Below, one piece after another: positions 22,463 through 64,000 of a stretch of DNA of 64,000 nucleotides (its first letter is position 1; each line of letters begins with the position of its first letter). Below the pieces are notes generated by a model. The model was given only the letters and a program-made list of their open reading frames with translations. It did not search any database and was not told the origin of the DNA. Source of the DNA: Cytophagaceae bacterium (GTDB lineage Bacteria; Bacteroidota; Bacteroidia; Cytophagales; UBA9547); contig JAIYAU010000044.1 in NCBI GenBank assembly GCA_027488865.1, positions 1 to 64,000 of the forward strand, read 5' to 3'. A program made the translations under genes and the position numbers.

Positions 22463-23008
22463 ATGTATGGTATTGTAAATAAGGCCATTGAAGAACTAGT
22501 TACTGCCTATTTTGGTGAAGATAAATGGGAGGCTATTAAAGAAAGAAGTGGAATCGATGTAGAATATTTTATCAGTACCGAGCCATATGACGATGATATA
22601 ACTTACAAACTTGCAGTTGCAGTTGCCCAAGAAATGAATATTACATTGAGCGAAGTACTAATTGCTTTTGGCGAATGGTGGATACTAAAAACGGCCAAAG
22701 AAAAATATGGATCACTTCTTCTTTCAGGAGGAAGCACATTGATAGATTTTCTAGAGCACCTTCCTGATTTTCATACAAGGATTATGTTAATGTATCCGAA
22801 ACTTACCCCTCCTGAATTTAAGATAAGTAACAAAACAAGCAATAGTATTGATGTGCACTATCATAGTAAAAGATTGGGATTACAAGAATTTGTAAGAGGG
22901 TTGCTACAAGGGCTTTCAAAATTGTTTAATAAGGAAACCCAGATAGAACTTATTCAAAGTAGAGATGACGGGTCTACACATGAAATATTTAGAGTATCAT
23001 GGAGTTAA
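22463..23008 (+). CDS. H-NOX heme-based gas sensor, 181 aa
   Basis: This heme nitric oxide/oxygen-binding protein starts with the typical MYGIVNKAIEELV. The proximal heme ligand is His104 (LPDFHTRI), the conserved proline is Pro116 or Pro117, and the heme-propionate clamp Y-x-S-x-R is Tyr133-Ser135-Arg137. Length is right for a stand-alone bacterial H-NOX. The segment after the clamp (LGLQEFVRG) shows no obvious distal tyrosine, which would fit NO rather than O2 binding; this is inference. It overlaps the kinase start by ten bases, so both are translated together. Confidence 0.95.
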   Translation: MYGIVNKAIEELVTAYFGEDKWEAIKERSGIDVEYFISTEPYDDDITYKLAVAVAQEMNITLSEVLIAFGEWWILKTAKEKYGSLLLSGGSTLIDFLEHLPDFHTRIMLMYPKLTPPEFKISNKTSNSIDVHYHSKRLGLQEFVRGLLQGLSKLFNKETQIELIQSRDDGSTHEIFRVSWS

Positions 23009-25770
23009 TTAATAAATCCGATATATTATTTAATGAATTAGAATCACTATTTCCATTTTGTATTTTATTTGATAACCACTCTAAAATACAACATATCGGA
23101 AAAAGTCTTTTAAAACTATTCCCGACTTTAAAAATTCACTCAGAATTATCAAATCAATTTATCTTATTTAGGCCTAAAGGTGAATCACTAGATGAAGAAT
23201 CTATAATTAAGTTGCAAAATCACTTGGTCGTATTGCAATGTAATCTTGACAATACCATCATGCTTAAAGGTCAATTTGCACAGCTTAATCAAGGTAAGTT
23301 ATACATTTTTGCATCCACGCCTTGGTTTAATAGTACCGACGAGATCTTAACCAGAAACCTAAGCATATCGGATTTTGCAGCTCACGACGCCACCGTTGAT
23401 ATGCTTCACGTGCTTAAAAACCAAGAAATAGCCATTTCAGAACTACGAGAATCTGAGCAGCGCTTAGTAAAACAGAAGAAACACTTAGAAAATGAACAAA
23501 GGCAACTCACACTAGCCAAGCAGGTAATTCAGTCGTCGAACGAACAACTAATTCTTTTTCAAAGCCTTATCAATAATTCATCAGATGCCATACAAGTTTC
23601 CCATGAAGATGGTAGGTTGTTTTACATAAATCATATCGCAGCTCAGCGCTTGGGCATATCACCTGAAAGTTGTAACCAGTATTATGTAAGCGATTTTGAA
23701 AAAATATTTTCAGAGGAAACTACTTGGCAAGACCATGTGCAAGAACTAAAAAATGTAGAATTTCTTACTATCGAAGGCATCAACAAAAATCAACTAAATG
23801 GGGAGCTATTCCCAGTAGAAGTAACTGTTAAATACATCAAGGTTGGCGAAAATGGATTTATAGTAGCAAACTCGCGCGATGTTAGTGAGCGCAAGCAAAA
23901 GGAATTACAATTAATACAACAAGAGGAACAATACAGAAATATCATAGCTAATATGAATATTGGTCTGATGGAAATAAACATGAACAGTGAGGTAACCTAT
24001 CACAACCAATGTTTTGAGCACATGGCCAACTTAACAGATTTTCAAAACCAACAATCAGAAATCCAAAAAATAATAAGCCAGTTATACAATAAAGAGGCAA
24101 TTACCACACTAGGAATTTATTCATTTGAGAAAGAAATATTTGATGCCTCTAGCAATAATAAATGGTGGCTGATTAGCATTGCTTCTAACCAAAACGACAA
24201 CAATGAAAAAATAGGCAATATTGTTGTTTGTATGGACATCACTGAGCAAAAAATGCTTGAGAAAGAGCTCGAAGAAGCACTAATAAAAGCTAAAGAAGCA
24301 TCAGCTGCTAAAGAAGCATTTTTGGCAAATATGAGCCACGAAATAAGAACACCGCTCAATGGAGTCATTGGCATGATTCGTGAAATAAACAAAGAACCGT
24401 TGTCTAAAAAGCAAGAAGCCTTCTTGGCCAATGCACAAAAAGCGTCACAACACCTTCTTTCTATAATTAACAATATTCTAGACCTCTCAAAAATAGAAGC
24501 AGGAGAACTTAAACTTGAGAAGTTCCCGCTTCAAATACCAACTCTATTAGATGACGTGAGAAAAATACTCGATTCTCAAGCCTCAGAAAAGGGGATCACA
24601 CTTACTACTCAAGTGATTGGCAATAAGGATATTGTAGTTCTTGGTGACGAAACACGTCTTAGACAAATACTTATTAACCTTACAGGCAACGCCATAAAAT
24701 TCACAGAAGTGGGAGGCGTACGCATTTCTTGTACTATCTCTCCTAATACCGACCATACCAATGCTGAAATTCAATTCGAAATTTTAGACACAGGGATTGG
24801 GATGGATCCCGAATATGTGGCTAAAATATTTACTAAATTTCAGCAAGAAGACCTCAGTATTACCCGTAAATTCGGCGGCTCAGGTCTTGGTATGGTAATC
24901 ACAAAGGAGCTCATCGACCTCATGAATGGCACCATGGAGGTAAAGAGTGCTAAAGGAACTGGCACTTCTATTAAAACTAAAATTTCTTTACCCATAAATC
25001 AAGAGACATTGCATACGCATAAAGAAGAAGTAAATCTCGACCTACTTCACAACATTCATTTACTGTTGGTAGAAGATAACGAATTGAACAGATTGGTAGC
25101 TTGCAATACCTTAGAACCATTTAACATGCAAATTACCGAAGTGGAAAACGGCGAAGAGGCAGTAAAAGCACTCCAAACTAAAAACTTCGACATAGTGTTA
25201 ATGGACCTGCAAATGCCTATCATGGGAGGCCTTGAAGCTACCCAATTAGTTCGTGAAAAGGGTATAAACGTACCCATTATAGCCCTCACGGCCAATGCCT
25301 TTAAATCAGAAATAGAAAAGTGTAAAAATGCTGGAATGAATGACTATGTCACCAAACCTTTTGAAGAGAAGAATTTATTTACAGTAATTGCCAAAAATCT
25401 TCAAAAGAACGTAAATATCCCTAACAACAAAACCACTACCATGACATACGATCTATCGAAAATAAACAGCATCGCTCGTGGCAAACCAGAGTTTGTGCAA
25501 AAAATGCTCACCCTATTTGTTTCAAGTGTAGAAGAAGCCCTGCATAATATCGAAGAAGCAGAGCAAAACAAAGACCTCGATCTCATTCAAAAGTCATTGC
25601 ACAAAATTAAACCTTCGGTCGACTACCTTTCTATGCCACAAACGTTGCAATACATAAAACAAATAGAGGCGCATGAAGGCAACTACCTCGATCAAAGTCT
25701 AATAGACATTCTCCAACTAGTAAAAGCCCAACTCATCACAACCAAGACAGATATAAAACAACAACTTTAA
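22999..25770 (+). CDS. H-NOX-associated hybrid sensor histidine kinase, 923 aa
   Basis: This is the signalling partner of the preceding H-NOX protein. Residues 1 to about 150 resemble the heme-NO-binding-associated (HNOBA) domain, followed by a coiled coil. Two PAS domains follow (about 185-300 and 310-420). Next come the HisKA domain with the phosphorylated His447 (MSHEIRTPLNG), a HATPase domain (NLTGNAIKF, DTGIGMD, GGSGLGM), a receiver domain with Asp736 (VLMDLQMP) and a C-terminal HPt domain with His868 (LHKIKP). It has no membrane helix, so it is cytosolic. An internal phosphorelay is likely, with output through an unlinked response regulator. Confidence 0.93.
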   Translation: MELINKSDILFNELESLFPFCILFDNHSKIQHIGKSLLKLFPTLKIHSELSNQFILFRPKGESLDEESIIKLQNHLVVLQCNLDNTIMLKGQFAQLNQGKLYIFASTPWFNSTDEILTRNLSISDFAAHDATVDMLHVLKNQEIAISELRESEQRLVKQKKHLENEQRQLTLAKQVIQSSNEQLILFQSLINNSSDAIQVSHEDGRLFYINHIAAQRLGISPESCNQYYVSDFEKIFSEETTWQDHVQELKNVEFLTIEGINKNQLNGELFPVEVTVKYIKVGENGFIVANSRDVSERKQKELQLIQQEEQYRNIIANMNIGLMEINMNSEVTYHNQCFEHMANLTDFQNQQSEIQKIISQLYNKEAITTLGIYSFEKEIFDASSNNKWWLISIASNQNDNNEKIGNIVVCMDITEQKMLEKELEEALIKAKEASAAKEAFLANMSHEIRTPLNGVIGMIREINKEPLSKKQEAFLANAQKASQHLLSIINNILDLSKIEAGELKLEKFPLQIPTLLDDVRKILDSQASEKGITLTTQVIGNKDIVVLGDETRLRQILINLTGNAIKFTEVGGVRISCTISPNTDHTNAEIQFEILDTGIGMDPEYVAKIFTKFQQEDLSITRKFGGSGLGMVITKELIDLMNGTMEVKSAKGTGTSIKTKISLPINQETLHTHKEEVNLDLLHNIHLLLVEDNELNRLVACNTLEPFNMQITEVENGEEAVKALQTKNFDIVLMDLQMPIMGGLEATQLVREKGINVPIIALTANAFKSEIEKCKNAGMNDYVTKPFEEKNLFTVIAKNLQKNVNIPNNKTTTMTYDLSKINSIARGKPEFVQKMLTLFVSSVEEALHNIEEAEQNKDLDLIQKSLHKIKPSVDYLSMPQTLQYIKQIEAHEGNYLDQSLIDILQLVKAQLITTKTDIKQQL

Positions 25771-25809: not shown

Positions 25810-26019
25810 AACTATTCTGAAAAACAAGCTGATAAATATGATGATAGTTTGGAATTTGCTTGTTAACAAATTCGAGAAAATCCTGAACTTGGTAAAGAAT
25901 ATGAAGAAGTTAAAAGTAACCTTCATAGTCTACGAACAAGAGCGCATATAATACTTTATCAAGTTGTAAACGATAAGAAAATCGAAATAACCAGAATTCT
26001 ACATGAACTATTTGTGTGA
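25810..26019 (+). pseudogene. ParE/RelE-type toxin remnant with an in-frame stop
   Basis: The frame reads YSEKQADKYDDSLEFAC, stop, QIRENPELGKEYEEV, then LHSLRTRAHIILYQVV and KKIEITRILHE. This is the C-terminal two-thirds of a ParE-family toxin (the EKQADKY and YEEV..LRxxRxxxHxIxYxV patterns). The N-terminal beta-strand is missing, and TAA at 25861-25863 interrupts it. No antitoxin is recognisable upstream, where the kinase gene ends. Confidence 0.65.
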
Positions 26020-26282: not shown

Positions 26283-27062
26283 TTATAAGTCTTTAAACGC
26301 TTGTAGTTTATGTGCATCTGCAGGTTTTATACCATGGATGTCACAGGTTTCTAAAACTTCAAAGTTTTTTATCTCTATGTAATCTTGGTATTCTGGGTCA
26401 GTGTTTATAATGATACCGCCTAACAATACTATTTTGTTACAATGAAATTCTTCTTTGGCCATACCTAGGCACTTATGCACCAATTTATGAATAATATTGT
26501 AAGTAATATCAGTAATTTCCTTTTTAGGAAATGCTGAAGTAACAATTTCATATTTAAAAGGCATTAAACTGCGCTCCAGCAAGGTTTGTTGATAATCAAT
26601 TTCAGAAGAAAAAGGAATGTAAATTTCTTCGTCCTCGTCAGTGGTTAGGCGCTCAAGTGCCAGCATTAGGGCTCCACAAGAGTTGGTGTCGTGCGACTGC
26701 CCTTCTCTACGCATTTTACCTAACGTACCATCTTTATTGATACCAATGTGTGGGCCATAAAAAATAAAGGCATGTCCGTTATCAGGGATGTGATGTGCAT
26801 AAGCCACCATGCCTGTGTATCCTGTGTAAGGCAAGCCACCTAAACCACCCATTACAAAAGGTCTGCTCAATACTTTGCTAAAATCTGCCGAAAAATTGGC
26901 GTCATCAGAGCAGATAGATGTAGCAAATAAGGTTTTGGCCAAATCTACATGATAATCTTCTTTGATGATTCGTAAATATTTATCTACCGCTTCGTCGCCT
27001 GGCTCAGCCAGTGGATAATGTGTTTTAATGAGTGCTTCAAGCTTTTCTTCAAGGTGTTGCAT
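26283..27062 (-). CDS. LCIB/C-like carbonic anhydrase family protein, 259 aa
   Basis: The sequence resembles the limiting-CO2-inducible LCIB/LCIC family, structurally related to beta-carbonic anhydrases, first known from algae. Recognised segments are FVMGGLGGLPYTG, HHIPDNGHAFIFYGPHIGI and TNSCGALMLA. Candidate zinc ligands are Cys51, His105 and Cys129, and Cys51-Ser-Asp53 resembles the Cys-x-Asp pair of the active site. There is no signal peptide, so it is cytosolic. It lies downstream of gatC, 35 bases away, in the same direction. Activity is not proven for every family member. Confidence 0.7.
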   Translation of the reverse strand: MQHLEEKLEALIKTHYPLAEPGDEAVDKYLRIIKEDYHVDLAKTLFATSICSDDANFSADFSKVLSRPFVMGGLGGLPYTGYTGMVAYAHHIPDNGHAFIFYGPHIGINKDGTLGKMRREGQSHDTNSCGALMLALERLTTDEDEEIYIPFSSEIDYQQTLLERSLMPFKYEIVTSAFPKKEITDITYNIIHKLVHKCLGMAKEEFHCNKIVLLGGIIINTDPEYQDYIEIKNFEVLETCDIHGIKPADAHKLQAFKDL

Positions 27063-62961: not shown

Positions 62962-64000
62962 CTAAGCTCTTTTAGCTCTTTCCCATAAAACAGATTGCCG
63001 CCCACGAAGATATCTAACAAAGCCTAGATAAACTGATAAGTTCATAATGAAGAAATAATAAGGCACAAAAAGCGCCTTTACTTTTATTCTTTTATGTTGC
63101 AAATACCATCCTAATAGTGCAGCAACATAAAAAGCAACCTGGCCAAACAGTAGAACAGAATATAGTATGGATTGGGAAACACCAACTAAGTAAATATTGA
63201 TTGGGAAAGCCAACAATAAAAATAAGGGGATAAGTGACCAACGCAACACACGGTGGGATACATATTGAAAAGTAAGTGTTCCGTATTTAAAGGGATTTAA
63301 TAAATCTTTTAACCAAACAATGGATTGAATACCACCAGCACAAATCCTGACCTTTCTTTTTAACTCTTCTTTTACATTAGCACTTGACGTTTCTAATGCA
63401 CAAGCTTCTGGCTCGTACACCACCCTAAATCCTTTTTGTGCTATTCTCAAAGACATCACAAAATCTTCAATGATGGCGTTGCTTTCCATTTGTTCAAACA
63501 ACTTGGTACGCACGGCAAACAACTCACCAGCTGCCCCTACTACGGTGTATAATTCACTGTCTAATTTTTTAAGAAAAGATTCATATTTCCAATAAAGGCC
63601 TTCGCCAGCACCACTAGCTGCTTCTTTTTCAGACAATAAAATCTTTTTTTCTCCTGCGACACATCCAACACCTTCATCTGCAAAGTGACGCACAATATTC
63701 TTGATGGCTTCTTTATTTAATAGTGTATTAGCATCGCAAAAAATAGTAACTGGGGTGGTTATCAAAGGCATCACGCGATTAACCGCTGCAATTTTTCCCT
63801 TTCTTTCTGGCTGATGATGTAGTTCAATAGTAGCAAACTGCCTAATTTTGTCAGGAGTGCCATCATCAGATCCATCGGTTACAAACACTATTTTTAACTT
63901 TTCTTTAGGGTAATCTAGCGCTAAACAATTTTTAATTTTGTCTTCAATAAATTCTATCTCGTTATAAGCGGCTATTAAAAGTGTAACTTCTGGTTGAAAA
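62962..64000 (-). CDS. Family 2 glycosyltransferase, 5' end beyond the window
   Basis: The open frame runs to the right edge without a start codon: the first visible residues are FQPEVTLLIAAYNEIEFIED, the classical GT2 nucleotide-binding start. It continues with VFVTDGSDDGTPD, FCDANTLLNKEAI (DxD-like), VGAAGELFAVR and IIEDFVMSLRI, the acceptor-site region. The C-terminus has several membrane helices (SLIPLFLLLAFPINIYLVGV). It looks like a membrane-bound processive GT2 such as those making cell-surface polysaccharides. About the first ten or so codons are missing. Confidence 0.9.
   Translation of the reverse strand, partial: FQPEVTLLIAAYNEIEFIEDKIKNCLALDYPKEKLKIVFVTDGSDDGTPDKIRQFATIELHHQPERKGKIAAVNRVMPLITTPVTIFCDANTLLNKEAIKNIVRHFADEGVGCVAGEKKILLSEKEAASGAGEGLYWKYESFLKKLDSELYTVVGAAGELFAVRTKLFEQMESNAIIEDFVMSLRIAQKGFRVVYEPEACALETSSANVKEELKRKVRICAGGIQSIVWLKDLLNPFKYGTLTFQYVSHRVLRWSLIPLFLLLAFPINIYLVGVSQSILYSVLLFGQVAFYVAALLGWYLQHKRIKVKALFVPYYFFIMNLSVYLGFVRYLRGRQSVLWERAKRA

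Follow-up and report, generated by a model that had tools for sequence, protein, structure and literature searches.

A candidate NO-responsive H-NOX/HNOBA kinase pair in a Cytophagaceae bacterium and its proposed sigma54-type partner at an exopolysaccharide operon

We analyzed a 64,000-nucleotide stretch of DNA (the window; positions 1 to 64,000 of contig JAIYAU010000044.1, assembly GCA_027488865.1) from a Cytophagaceae bacterium, in which an H-NOX sensor gene is followed by the gene of a hybrid histidine kinase with an HNOBA domain. In our best reading, which we consider moderately probable, the pair is a nitric oxide (NO)-controlled phosphorelay that feeds c2, a REC-sigma54-activator (NtrC-type) protein of about 450 aa, and so exopolysaccharide. 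The parts are ordinary and the sensor/kinase pair is known; the output is well supported and, as far as we searched, undescribed. The missing output of the pair can now be proposed, and the proposal of c2 is new here. The pair has the following features.

22463..23008, + strand: H-NOX (haem NO/O2-binding) gene, 181 aa (Pfam HNOB, 160.8 bits)
22772..22774, + strand: proximal haem ligand His104, invariant in 16/16 aligned H-NOX proteins, the window's included
22859..22873, + strand: YxSxR motif (Y133, S135, R137) of H-NOX, invariant in 16/16 aligned
22999..23008, + strand: ten-base overlap of H-NOX and kinase (open reading frame (ORF) coordinates), recurring in nine other loci of about five lineages
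22999..25770, + strand: hybrid histidine kinase, 923 aa, HNOBA-PAS-PAS-HisKA-HATPase-REC-HPt (ORF and Pfam)
23035..23526, + strand: HNOBA (PAS of soluble guanylyl cyclase (sGC) type) and start of the signalling helix; HNOBA stretches 23035-23244 and 23248-23526
23584..23889, + strand: PAS domain 1 (PAS_9, residues 196-297, E 2.2e-05, 25.1 bits, below the 27-bit cut-off)
23926..24072, + strand: PAS domain 2 (PAS_8, residues 310-358, 30.5 bits)
24307..24504, + strand: HisKA (Pfam, 67.8 bits), phospho-acceptor His447 at 24337-24339
24643..24990, + strand: HATPase_c (Pfam, 88.5 bits)
25063..25389, + strand: receiver domain (Response_reg, 94.9 bits), Asp736 at 25204-25206
25504..25680, + strand: HPt domain (Hpt profile, alignment and model), His868 at 25600-25602

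The kinase belongs to a clade that is linked to c2 in most of its members. The loci examined were 40 from the order and 80 named ones, the latter being the best of 450 relatives; one order locus (L042), with an H-NOX below threshold, stayed outside the classification. An HNOBA gene lay beside H-NOX in 102 loci (21 from the order, the 80 named ones and the window), and the relatives showed two main layouts. Type A, mostly from Flavobacterium, consists of REC, H-NOX, HNOBA-PAS-HK (histidine kinase), FIST, HK, HPt and LytTR (domains from L094). Type B consists of c2, sometimes FIST, H-NOX and HNOBA...HK-REC-HPt, often with c5, a stand-alone receiver. A quick maximum-likelihood tree was built from 56 HK-REC cores, of which 54 are HNOBA rows and two belong to non-H-NOX kinases found at c2; the type A kinases, having no REC, are not included, the support values are SH-aLRT only, and two rows have very long branches. 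The window kinase was placed in a starred 12-row clade (SH-aLRT 100) within a starred 34-row clade (97) of Bacteroidota H-NOX/HNOBA kinases. Its sister is L139 (94, unstarred) and the next relative is L122 (88, unstarred), in which c2 lies upstream of H-NOX by 3 nt and 1 nt, respectively.

Within 3 kb, c2 was present in 26 of the 34 clade rows (24 on the same strand, 2 divergent) versus 1 of the 20 HNOBA rows outside (Fisher p = 4e-07, with related rows not independent). The clade rows without a nearby c2 were the window, L060, L115, L118, L125, L152, L158 and L169. The single outside row with c2 was L070, where it is divergent, and two of the 20 outside rows, L059 and L110 (the latter from Runella), have identical kinase cores and stand for a single locus. 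In total, 32 of the 102 HNOBA loci have c2 at a 400-bit threshold, 28 of them on the same strand, and HPt-bearing HNOBA kinases without c2 exist outside the 34-row clade (e.g. L120, L133, L146). Culturable relatives with c2 adjoining H-NOX include Sediminibacterium goheungense (L167) and Lutibacter agarilyticus (L108). An even draw over the phylum comprised 395 genomes, with HNOBA-profile matches in 15, own included. Two of the 15 other loci (L274 and L275) combined HNOBA, HPt and an adjacent H-NOX, and c2 was directly beside H-NOX in both; it was found at none of the remaining 13.

The exact ten-base overlap occurs in 10 of the 102 HNOBA loci, the window included, and c2 was adjacent in all nine others: in seven it precedes H-NOX by 1 to 6 nt on the same strand, and in two it is divergent (L157 and L165; 474-476 bits). 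The nine loci amount to about five lineages: within the groups L139/L140/L143, L157/L165 and L062/L063 the DNA is similar across kilobases (best stretch, 75 to 97%). In the window, H-NOX and the kinase lie on one strand with this overlap, consistent with a single operon as judged from the genes alone, and are likely translationally coupled.

The genome of the window also encodes c2. Nine Sigma54_activat matches were found, three of them strong, and one of these is a c2 orthologue (G000:C62:55424-56773) on another contig than the pair, 57-64% identical to nine cluster members. A second strong Sigma54_activat protein is ~40% identical to the c2 cluster, and a whole-genome c2 search gave no second match over 480 bits. 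The c2 protein has the receiver Asp54 and the GAFTGA motif, and the genome has one RpoN. A preliminary description of the pair had proposed a genome search for an orphan response regulator; the Sigma54_activat search located the regulator c2, which adjoins a kinase of its own. Elsewhere in the genome, c2 was present in 7 of 8 genomes with an unlinked kinase (those of L115, L118, L125, L152, L158, L170 and L060) versus 48 of 148 genomes of the order at a threshold of at least 480 bits (binomial p 0.002). Some of the eight are outside the order and they are not fully independent; in addition, the L118 kinase has nothing beyond its REC, and L170 narrowly misses the 34-row clade. In the L115 genome, c2 is on the H-NOX contig, ~19 kb from H-NOX with exopolysaccharide genes between, and a second c2 is present. 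G051, from the window's family, has a c2 with one internal stop.

In the own genome, c2 lies inside an exopolysaccharide operon consisting of c2, c5, Poly_export/SLBB (Wza), GNVR plus AAA (Wzc), a flippase-like gene, a glycosyltransferase (GT) and Wzy_C, with the 939-aa kinase gene divergent. The flippase-like product is a 421-aa protein without a Pfam match, and its label is our own. The order c2, H-NOX, kinase, c5, Wza, Wzc, flippase-like, GT, Wzy was found in L062/L084, L063/L082 and L066/L083, two of them with an FG-GAP protein before c5, and this shared order is independent of the query panel used for the counts below. L070/L089 has the exopolysaccharide operon with H-NOX divergent beside c2, and eight c2-linked loci flank a GT2 plus ManC-like gene (Pfam on L112, the others by similarity). 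A gene of the exopolysaccharide panel was within 8 kb in 16 of the 34 clade loci, or in 18 with longer L062 and L063 stretches. The c2 regions gave 28 panel hits in 362 kb, whereas the 20 random control stretches chosen blind, by position (L172-L191; 360 kb), gave 2, each in a different region. The panel was partly drawn from studied loci (L112, L115, L094), and so its counts lean toward the favoured reading. Overall, c2 lies often, not always, at exopolysaccharide genes. NO-controlled surface behaviour, raised in the preliminary description as one possibility, gains support from a usual partner of the clade that is, by sequence, a sigma54 regulator in an exopolysaccharide operon in the own genome and several relatives.

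A conserved promoter element precedes c5. A blind Gibbs search was run on the upstream regions of c5 (18 stretches, one duplicate dropped) from c2 loci with and without H-NOX, variously related. In 15 of the 18 stretches it returned TTGGYAY-N5-(T/A)(G/T)G, equivalent to GG-N10-G, located 37-63 nt ahead of the start. The information content was 16.6 bits (best of 12 runs; worst 12.9), compared with 10.5-11.2 for six shuffled sets, each searched in four runs. The element was not returned for the second L122 receiver or for L054 and L210; the latter two showed a similar site in a separate upstream search, and the chosen L054 start is doubtful. The own c5 promoter site is TTGGCACGTTTAATGAAA. The motif resembles what we take to be sigma54 -24/-12 elements. 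Before the window H-NOX, no sigma54-like site stood out (p 0.17). A scan for textbook sigma54 sites gave six in L080 versus 1.3 expected and 11 in the window versus 4.45, which we did not use as evidence. With the pattern loosened to admit the own site, 31 genome-wide matches were obtained versus 15 for the reversed pattern. Among the 30 examined, 29 lay inside ORFs and one (L253) preceded a protein with a weak Ig-like match; the 31st was the c5 site. We claim no genome-wide regulon from these matches.

Several observations weigh against the reading that the pair feeds c2. In this genome the pair is unlinked to c2, and c2 adjoins its own kinase, a 939-aa protein without H-NOX that falls outside the clade. 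The pair may therefore have lost c2 as its partner or be one of two inputs. The L169 genome has the kinase type and no c2, and two HPt kinases of the phylum draw with weak HNOBA matches (L280 and L281; 60.8 and 43.7 bits) have no neighbouring H-NOX or c2; counting these, c2 is beside 2 of 4. Panel genes were present in 8 of the 20 c2 regions. They lie at c2 in 5 of the 7 genomes with an unlinked kinase and a c2, with none at c2 in the L152 and L118 genomes, and several c2-linked H-NOX loci, sister L139 included, have no panel gene within 8 kb. Furthermore, the -12 element of the own promoter has GA in place of GC, and no textbook sigma54 site turned up between c2 and Wza in an initial scan.

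The missing linkage and the kinase beside c2 would also fit an NO-responsive kinase with another unlinked target regulator, LytTR or another orphan, if the move of the pair broke its link to c2. Other Bacteroidota H-NOX/HNOBA kinases adjoin LytTR regulators. In addition, H-NOX is patchy in the window's family, with a match to the window H-NOX in 1 of the 9 other genomes, which makes a transfer of the pair plausible; in the order, an HNOB match occurs in 135 of 390 genomes, own included. However, the LytTR-linked kinases are outside the 34-row clade or have no REC/HPt, so that LytTR is not our first choice as the partner of this kinase, and c2 is kept in most of the genomes with an unlinked kinase. 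We consider another target unlikely.

The H-NOX protein covers positions 1-162 of 163 of the HNOB profile and is the single HNOB match in a genome-wide profile search. Its best match in the Protein Data Bank (PDB) is Nostoc Alr2278 (171 bits, residues 1-180), followed by sGC beta1 (89 to 94 bits) and by other listed H-NOX entries (29 to 43 bits). Judged by their sequences, H-NOX and the HNOBA part of the kinase are both of the soluble-guanylyl-cyclase/Nostoc type. The YxSxR motif is presumably the haem-propionate motif. F143 aligns with M144 of Alr2278 and W73 with W74, two residues which we take to line the distal pocket. A distal Tyr is absent in the alignment, with the hydrophobic F143 at the aligned position, and the protein has no Cys. 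According to the relevant part of PMC12329717, a distal Tyr is typical of O2-stable H-NOX, and a hydrophobic residue replaces it in NO sensors. With a hydrophobic distal pocket and no cysteine, the protein most likely responds to NO. Thus the preliminary description, which had noted no evident distal tyrosine and considered NO sensing likely, holds on the first point and is supported on the second, NO being the best reading of the predicted pocket.

It is quite improbable that H-NOX instead reports O2, CO or the redox state. The ligand was assigned from sequence, and a Cys/zinc redox mode is known for some H-NOX proteins (PMC8738867, in its section 10). However, that mode is excluded here because the protein has no Cys, the distal position holds F143 rather than Tyr, and the nearest solved relative is of the Nostoc type, followed by sGC.

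The kinase contains a full internal phosphorelay, with H447, D736 and H868 all in place. Its HNOBA domain scored 76.2 bits in Pfam. The sequence profile matched the sGC alpha and beta PAS domains and the Nostoc punctiforme kinase PAS (2p04/2p08). The predicted model (pLDDT 86.9), with PAS-like strands and a helix at 131-184, matched the same sGC structures and 2p08 in Foldseek, and the domain was thus recovered by both sequence profile and predicted fold. The Hpt profile scored 22.4 bits on the whole kinase, just under the 24.6 cut-off, and 26.1 on the last 125 aa alone. It matched 22 of 23 aligned kinase tails, the window's included, and the residue aligned with His868 was invariant in all 23. 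The predicted HPt model was all-helical (pLDDT 90.6), with the HPt protein 3myf as the best Foldseek match (E 7.8e-04). Pfam gave no guanylyl cyclase catalytic domain among the kinase domains, with kinase, REC and HPt domains instead. The preliminary description had read HNOBA-PAS-PAS-HisKA-REC-HPt with a complete relay and a ten-base overlap with H-NOX; every named domain was recovered, the three residues are present, and the ORFs overlap to the base as claimed. Least probable of all is a relic, stranded after regulator loss, with little function or acting as a phosphatase draining the c2 relay; the unlinked pair and a truncated ParE toxin fragment behind the kinase, a sign of local gene decay, stand against two open frames in which the relay and haem residues and the overlap are all kept.

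In the NO-controlled phosphorelay feeding c2 that we favour, the pair would be built from unfused soluble-guanylyl-cyclase regulatory parts. NO would be bound by H-NOX at the ferrous haem, and H-NOX would dock on the HNOBA/PAS-helix end of the kinase and change, probably lower, its autophosphorylation. The phosphate would pass from His447 to Asp736, to His868 in HPt and on to the unlinked c2. Phosphorylated c2 would drive the operon c5-Wza-Wzc-flippase-like-glycosyltransferase-Wzy from the -24/-12 type promoter, with exopolysaccharide as the output and hence surface or biofilm behaviour. That the linkage reflects phosphotransfer, and that NO acts on exopolysaccharide, is our inference.

The surroundings of the pair fit the statement in the preliminary description that no response-regulator gene lies beside it. 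No other receiver or c2-type regulator was found in the 64 kb with the window kinase and c2/c5 as queries, a search that was not exhaustive, and a Pfam scan of the four neighbouring proteins found none. Directly behind the kinase, at 25867-26016 (+), is an open fragment without a start, with a stop just upstream, that matches the C-terminal half of ParE_toxin (29.4 bits), a decayed toxin gene. An LCIB_C_CA protein (limiting-CO2-inducible beta carbonic anhydrase-like, 177 bits) is encoded at 26283-27062 (-), and a family-2 glycosyltransferase-like protein at the window end, 62965-63999 (-).

Other arrangements were observed among the relatives. L094 (13166-16363) and other type A loci carry a FIST (NosP-family) gene in the same gene row as H-NOX, along with HK, HPt and LytTR as separate genes, so that one relay would have two putative NO sensors. 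Section 10 of PMC8738867 reports FIST genes close to certain hnoX groups. In L214, L215 and L216, c2 lies beside a FIST-like protein (55-58 bits) and an HK-REC-HPt kinase without H-NOX, and c2 may serve NosP-type sensors as well. A FIST/NosP protein as a second sensor in the window's genome was rejected, as a profile search of that genome found no FIST_C match. L279, L287, L288 and L211 have HNOBA kinases for which no adjacent H-NOX was found by query; FIST is kept in L279 and L288, and the L211 kinase is beside c2. L051 (5517-7643) has H-NOX followed by an HNOBA-SpoIIE phosphatase and no kinase, and SpoIIE proteins are also beside H-NOX in L044 and L048, and in L045 by similarity. L052 (12322-15033) and its kin encode a DUF4184 plus TPR protein with a weak PgaA_barrel match near several H-NOX loci.

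We found no account of this Bacteroidota arrangement in a title-level literature search, with subscription journals mostly outside its scope. A 2003 study reportedly described HNOB/HNOBA in bacteria. Most of what is established about NO control of biofilms comes from Proteobacteria. The NO-biofilm examples in the relevant parts of the review PMC8738867 are likewise proteobacterial. More tentatively than for the pair itself, and with somewhat less than even confidence, we suggest that across Bacteroidota the unfused regulatory half of sGC (H-NOX plus HNOBA kinase) is hard-wired to the c2 family of sigma54 regulators and gives NO-controlled exopolysaccharide. If so, this H-NOX/HNOBA-c2 system would parallel the Vibrio syp circuit independently, Bacteroidota would gain a named NO input, relay, regulator and output, and many species would carry a further putative NO sensor, of the FIST/NosP family, in the operon of the c2 system. 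The pair may also serve as a simple bacterial model for studying how H-NOX communicates with the HNOBA/PAS and helix region of the human NO receptor.

The closest known counterpart of the proposed circuit is that of Vibrio fischeri, in which, according to section 8 of PMC8738867 and passages of PMC12369376, HnoX-HahK, which NO inhibits, acts via the SypF HPt on SypG and the syp polysaccharide. SypG is called sigma54-dependent in a title cited by PMC12369376. As in HnoX-HahK-SypF-SypG, an H-NOX/kinase operon would act through HPt on a sigma54 regulator of an exopolysaccharide locus, c2 being likened to SypG by its NtrC class only. The partner expected of a syp-like system, c2 at a polysaccharide locus, is linked in relatives and unlinked here, and phosphotransfer to it is presumed. 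The present case differs from V. fischeri in that it comes from Bacteroidota, its H-NOX is of the Nostoc/sGC type, and the H-NOX kinase carries both an HPt and an HNOBA domain of sGC type within its own chain. Nostoc provides the closest solved H-NOX by sequence, Alr2278, and a Nostoc punctiforme histidine kinase (2p04/2p08) with the same HNOBA fold. Compared with the Bacteroidota type A operon of Flavobacterium, the same kind of sensor and HNOBA kinase is present, whereas type A has separate REC and HPt, a LytTR output and a FIST (NosP-family) gene in the operon. As in soluble guanylyl cyclase, H-NOX, HNOBA/PAS and a coiled-coil signalling helix are arranged in series, with an SD..xHDAT motif after the PAS; here, however, they are divided between two chains, and kinase, REC and HPt replace the cyclase.

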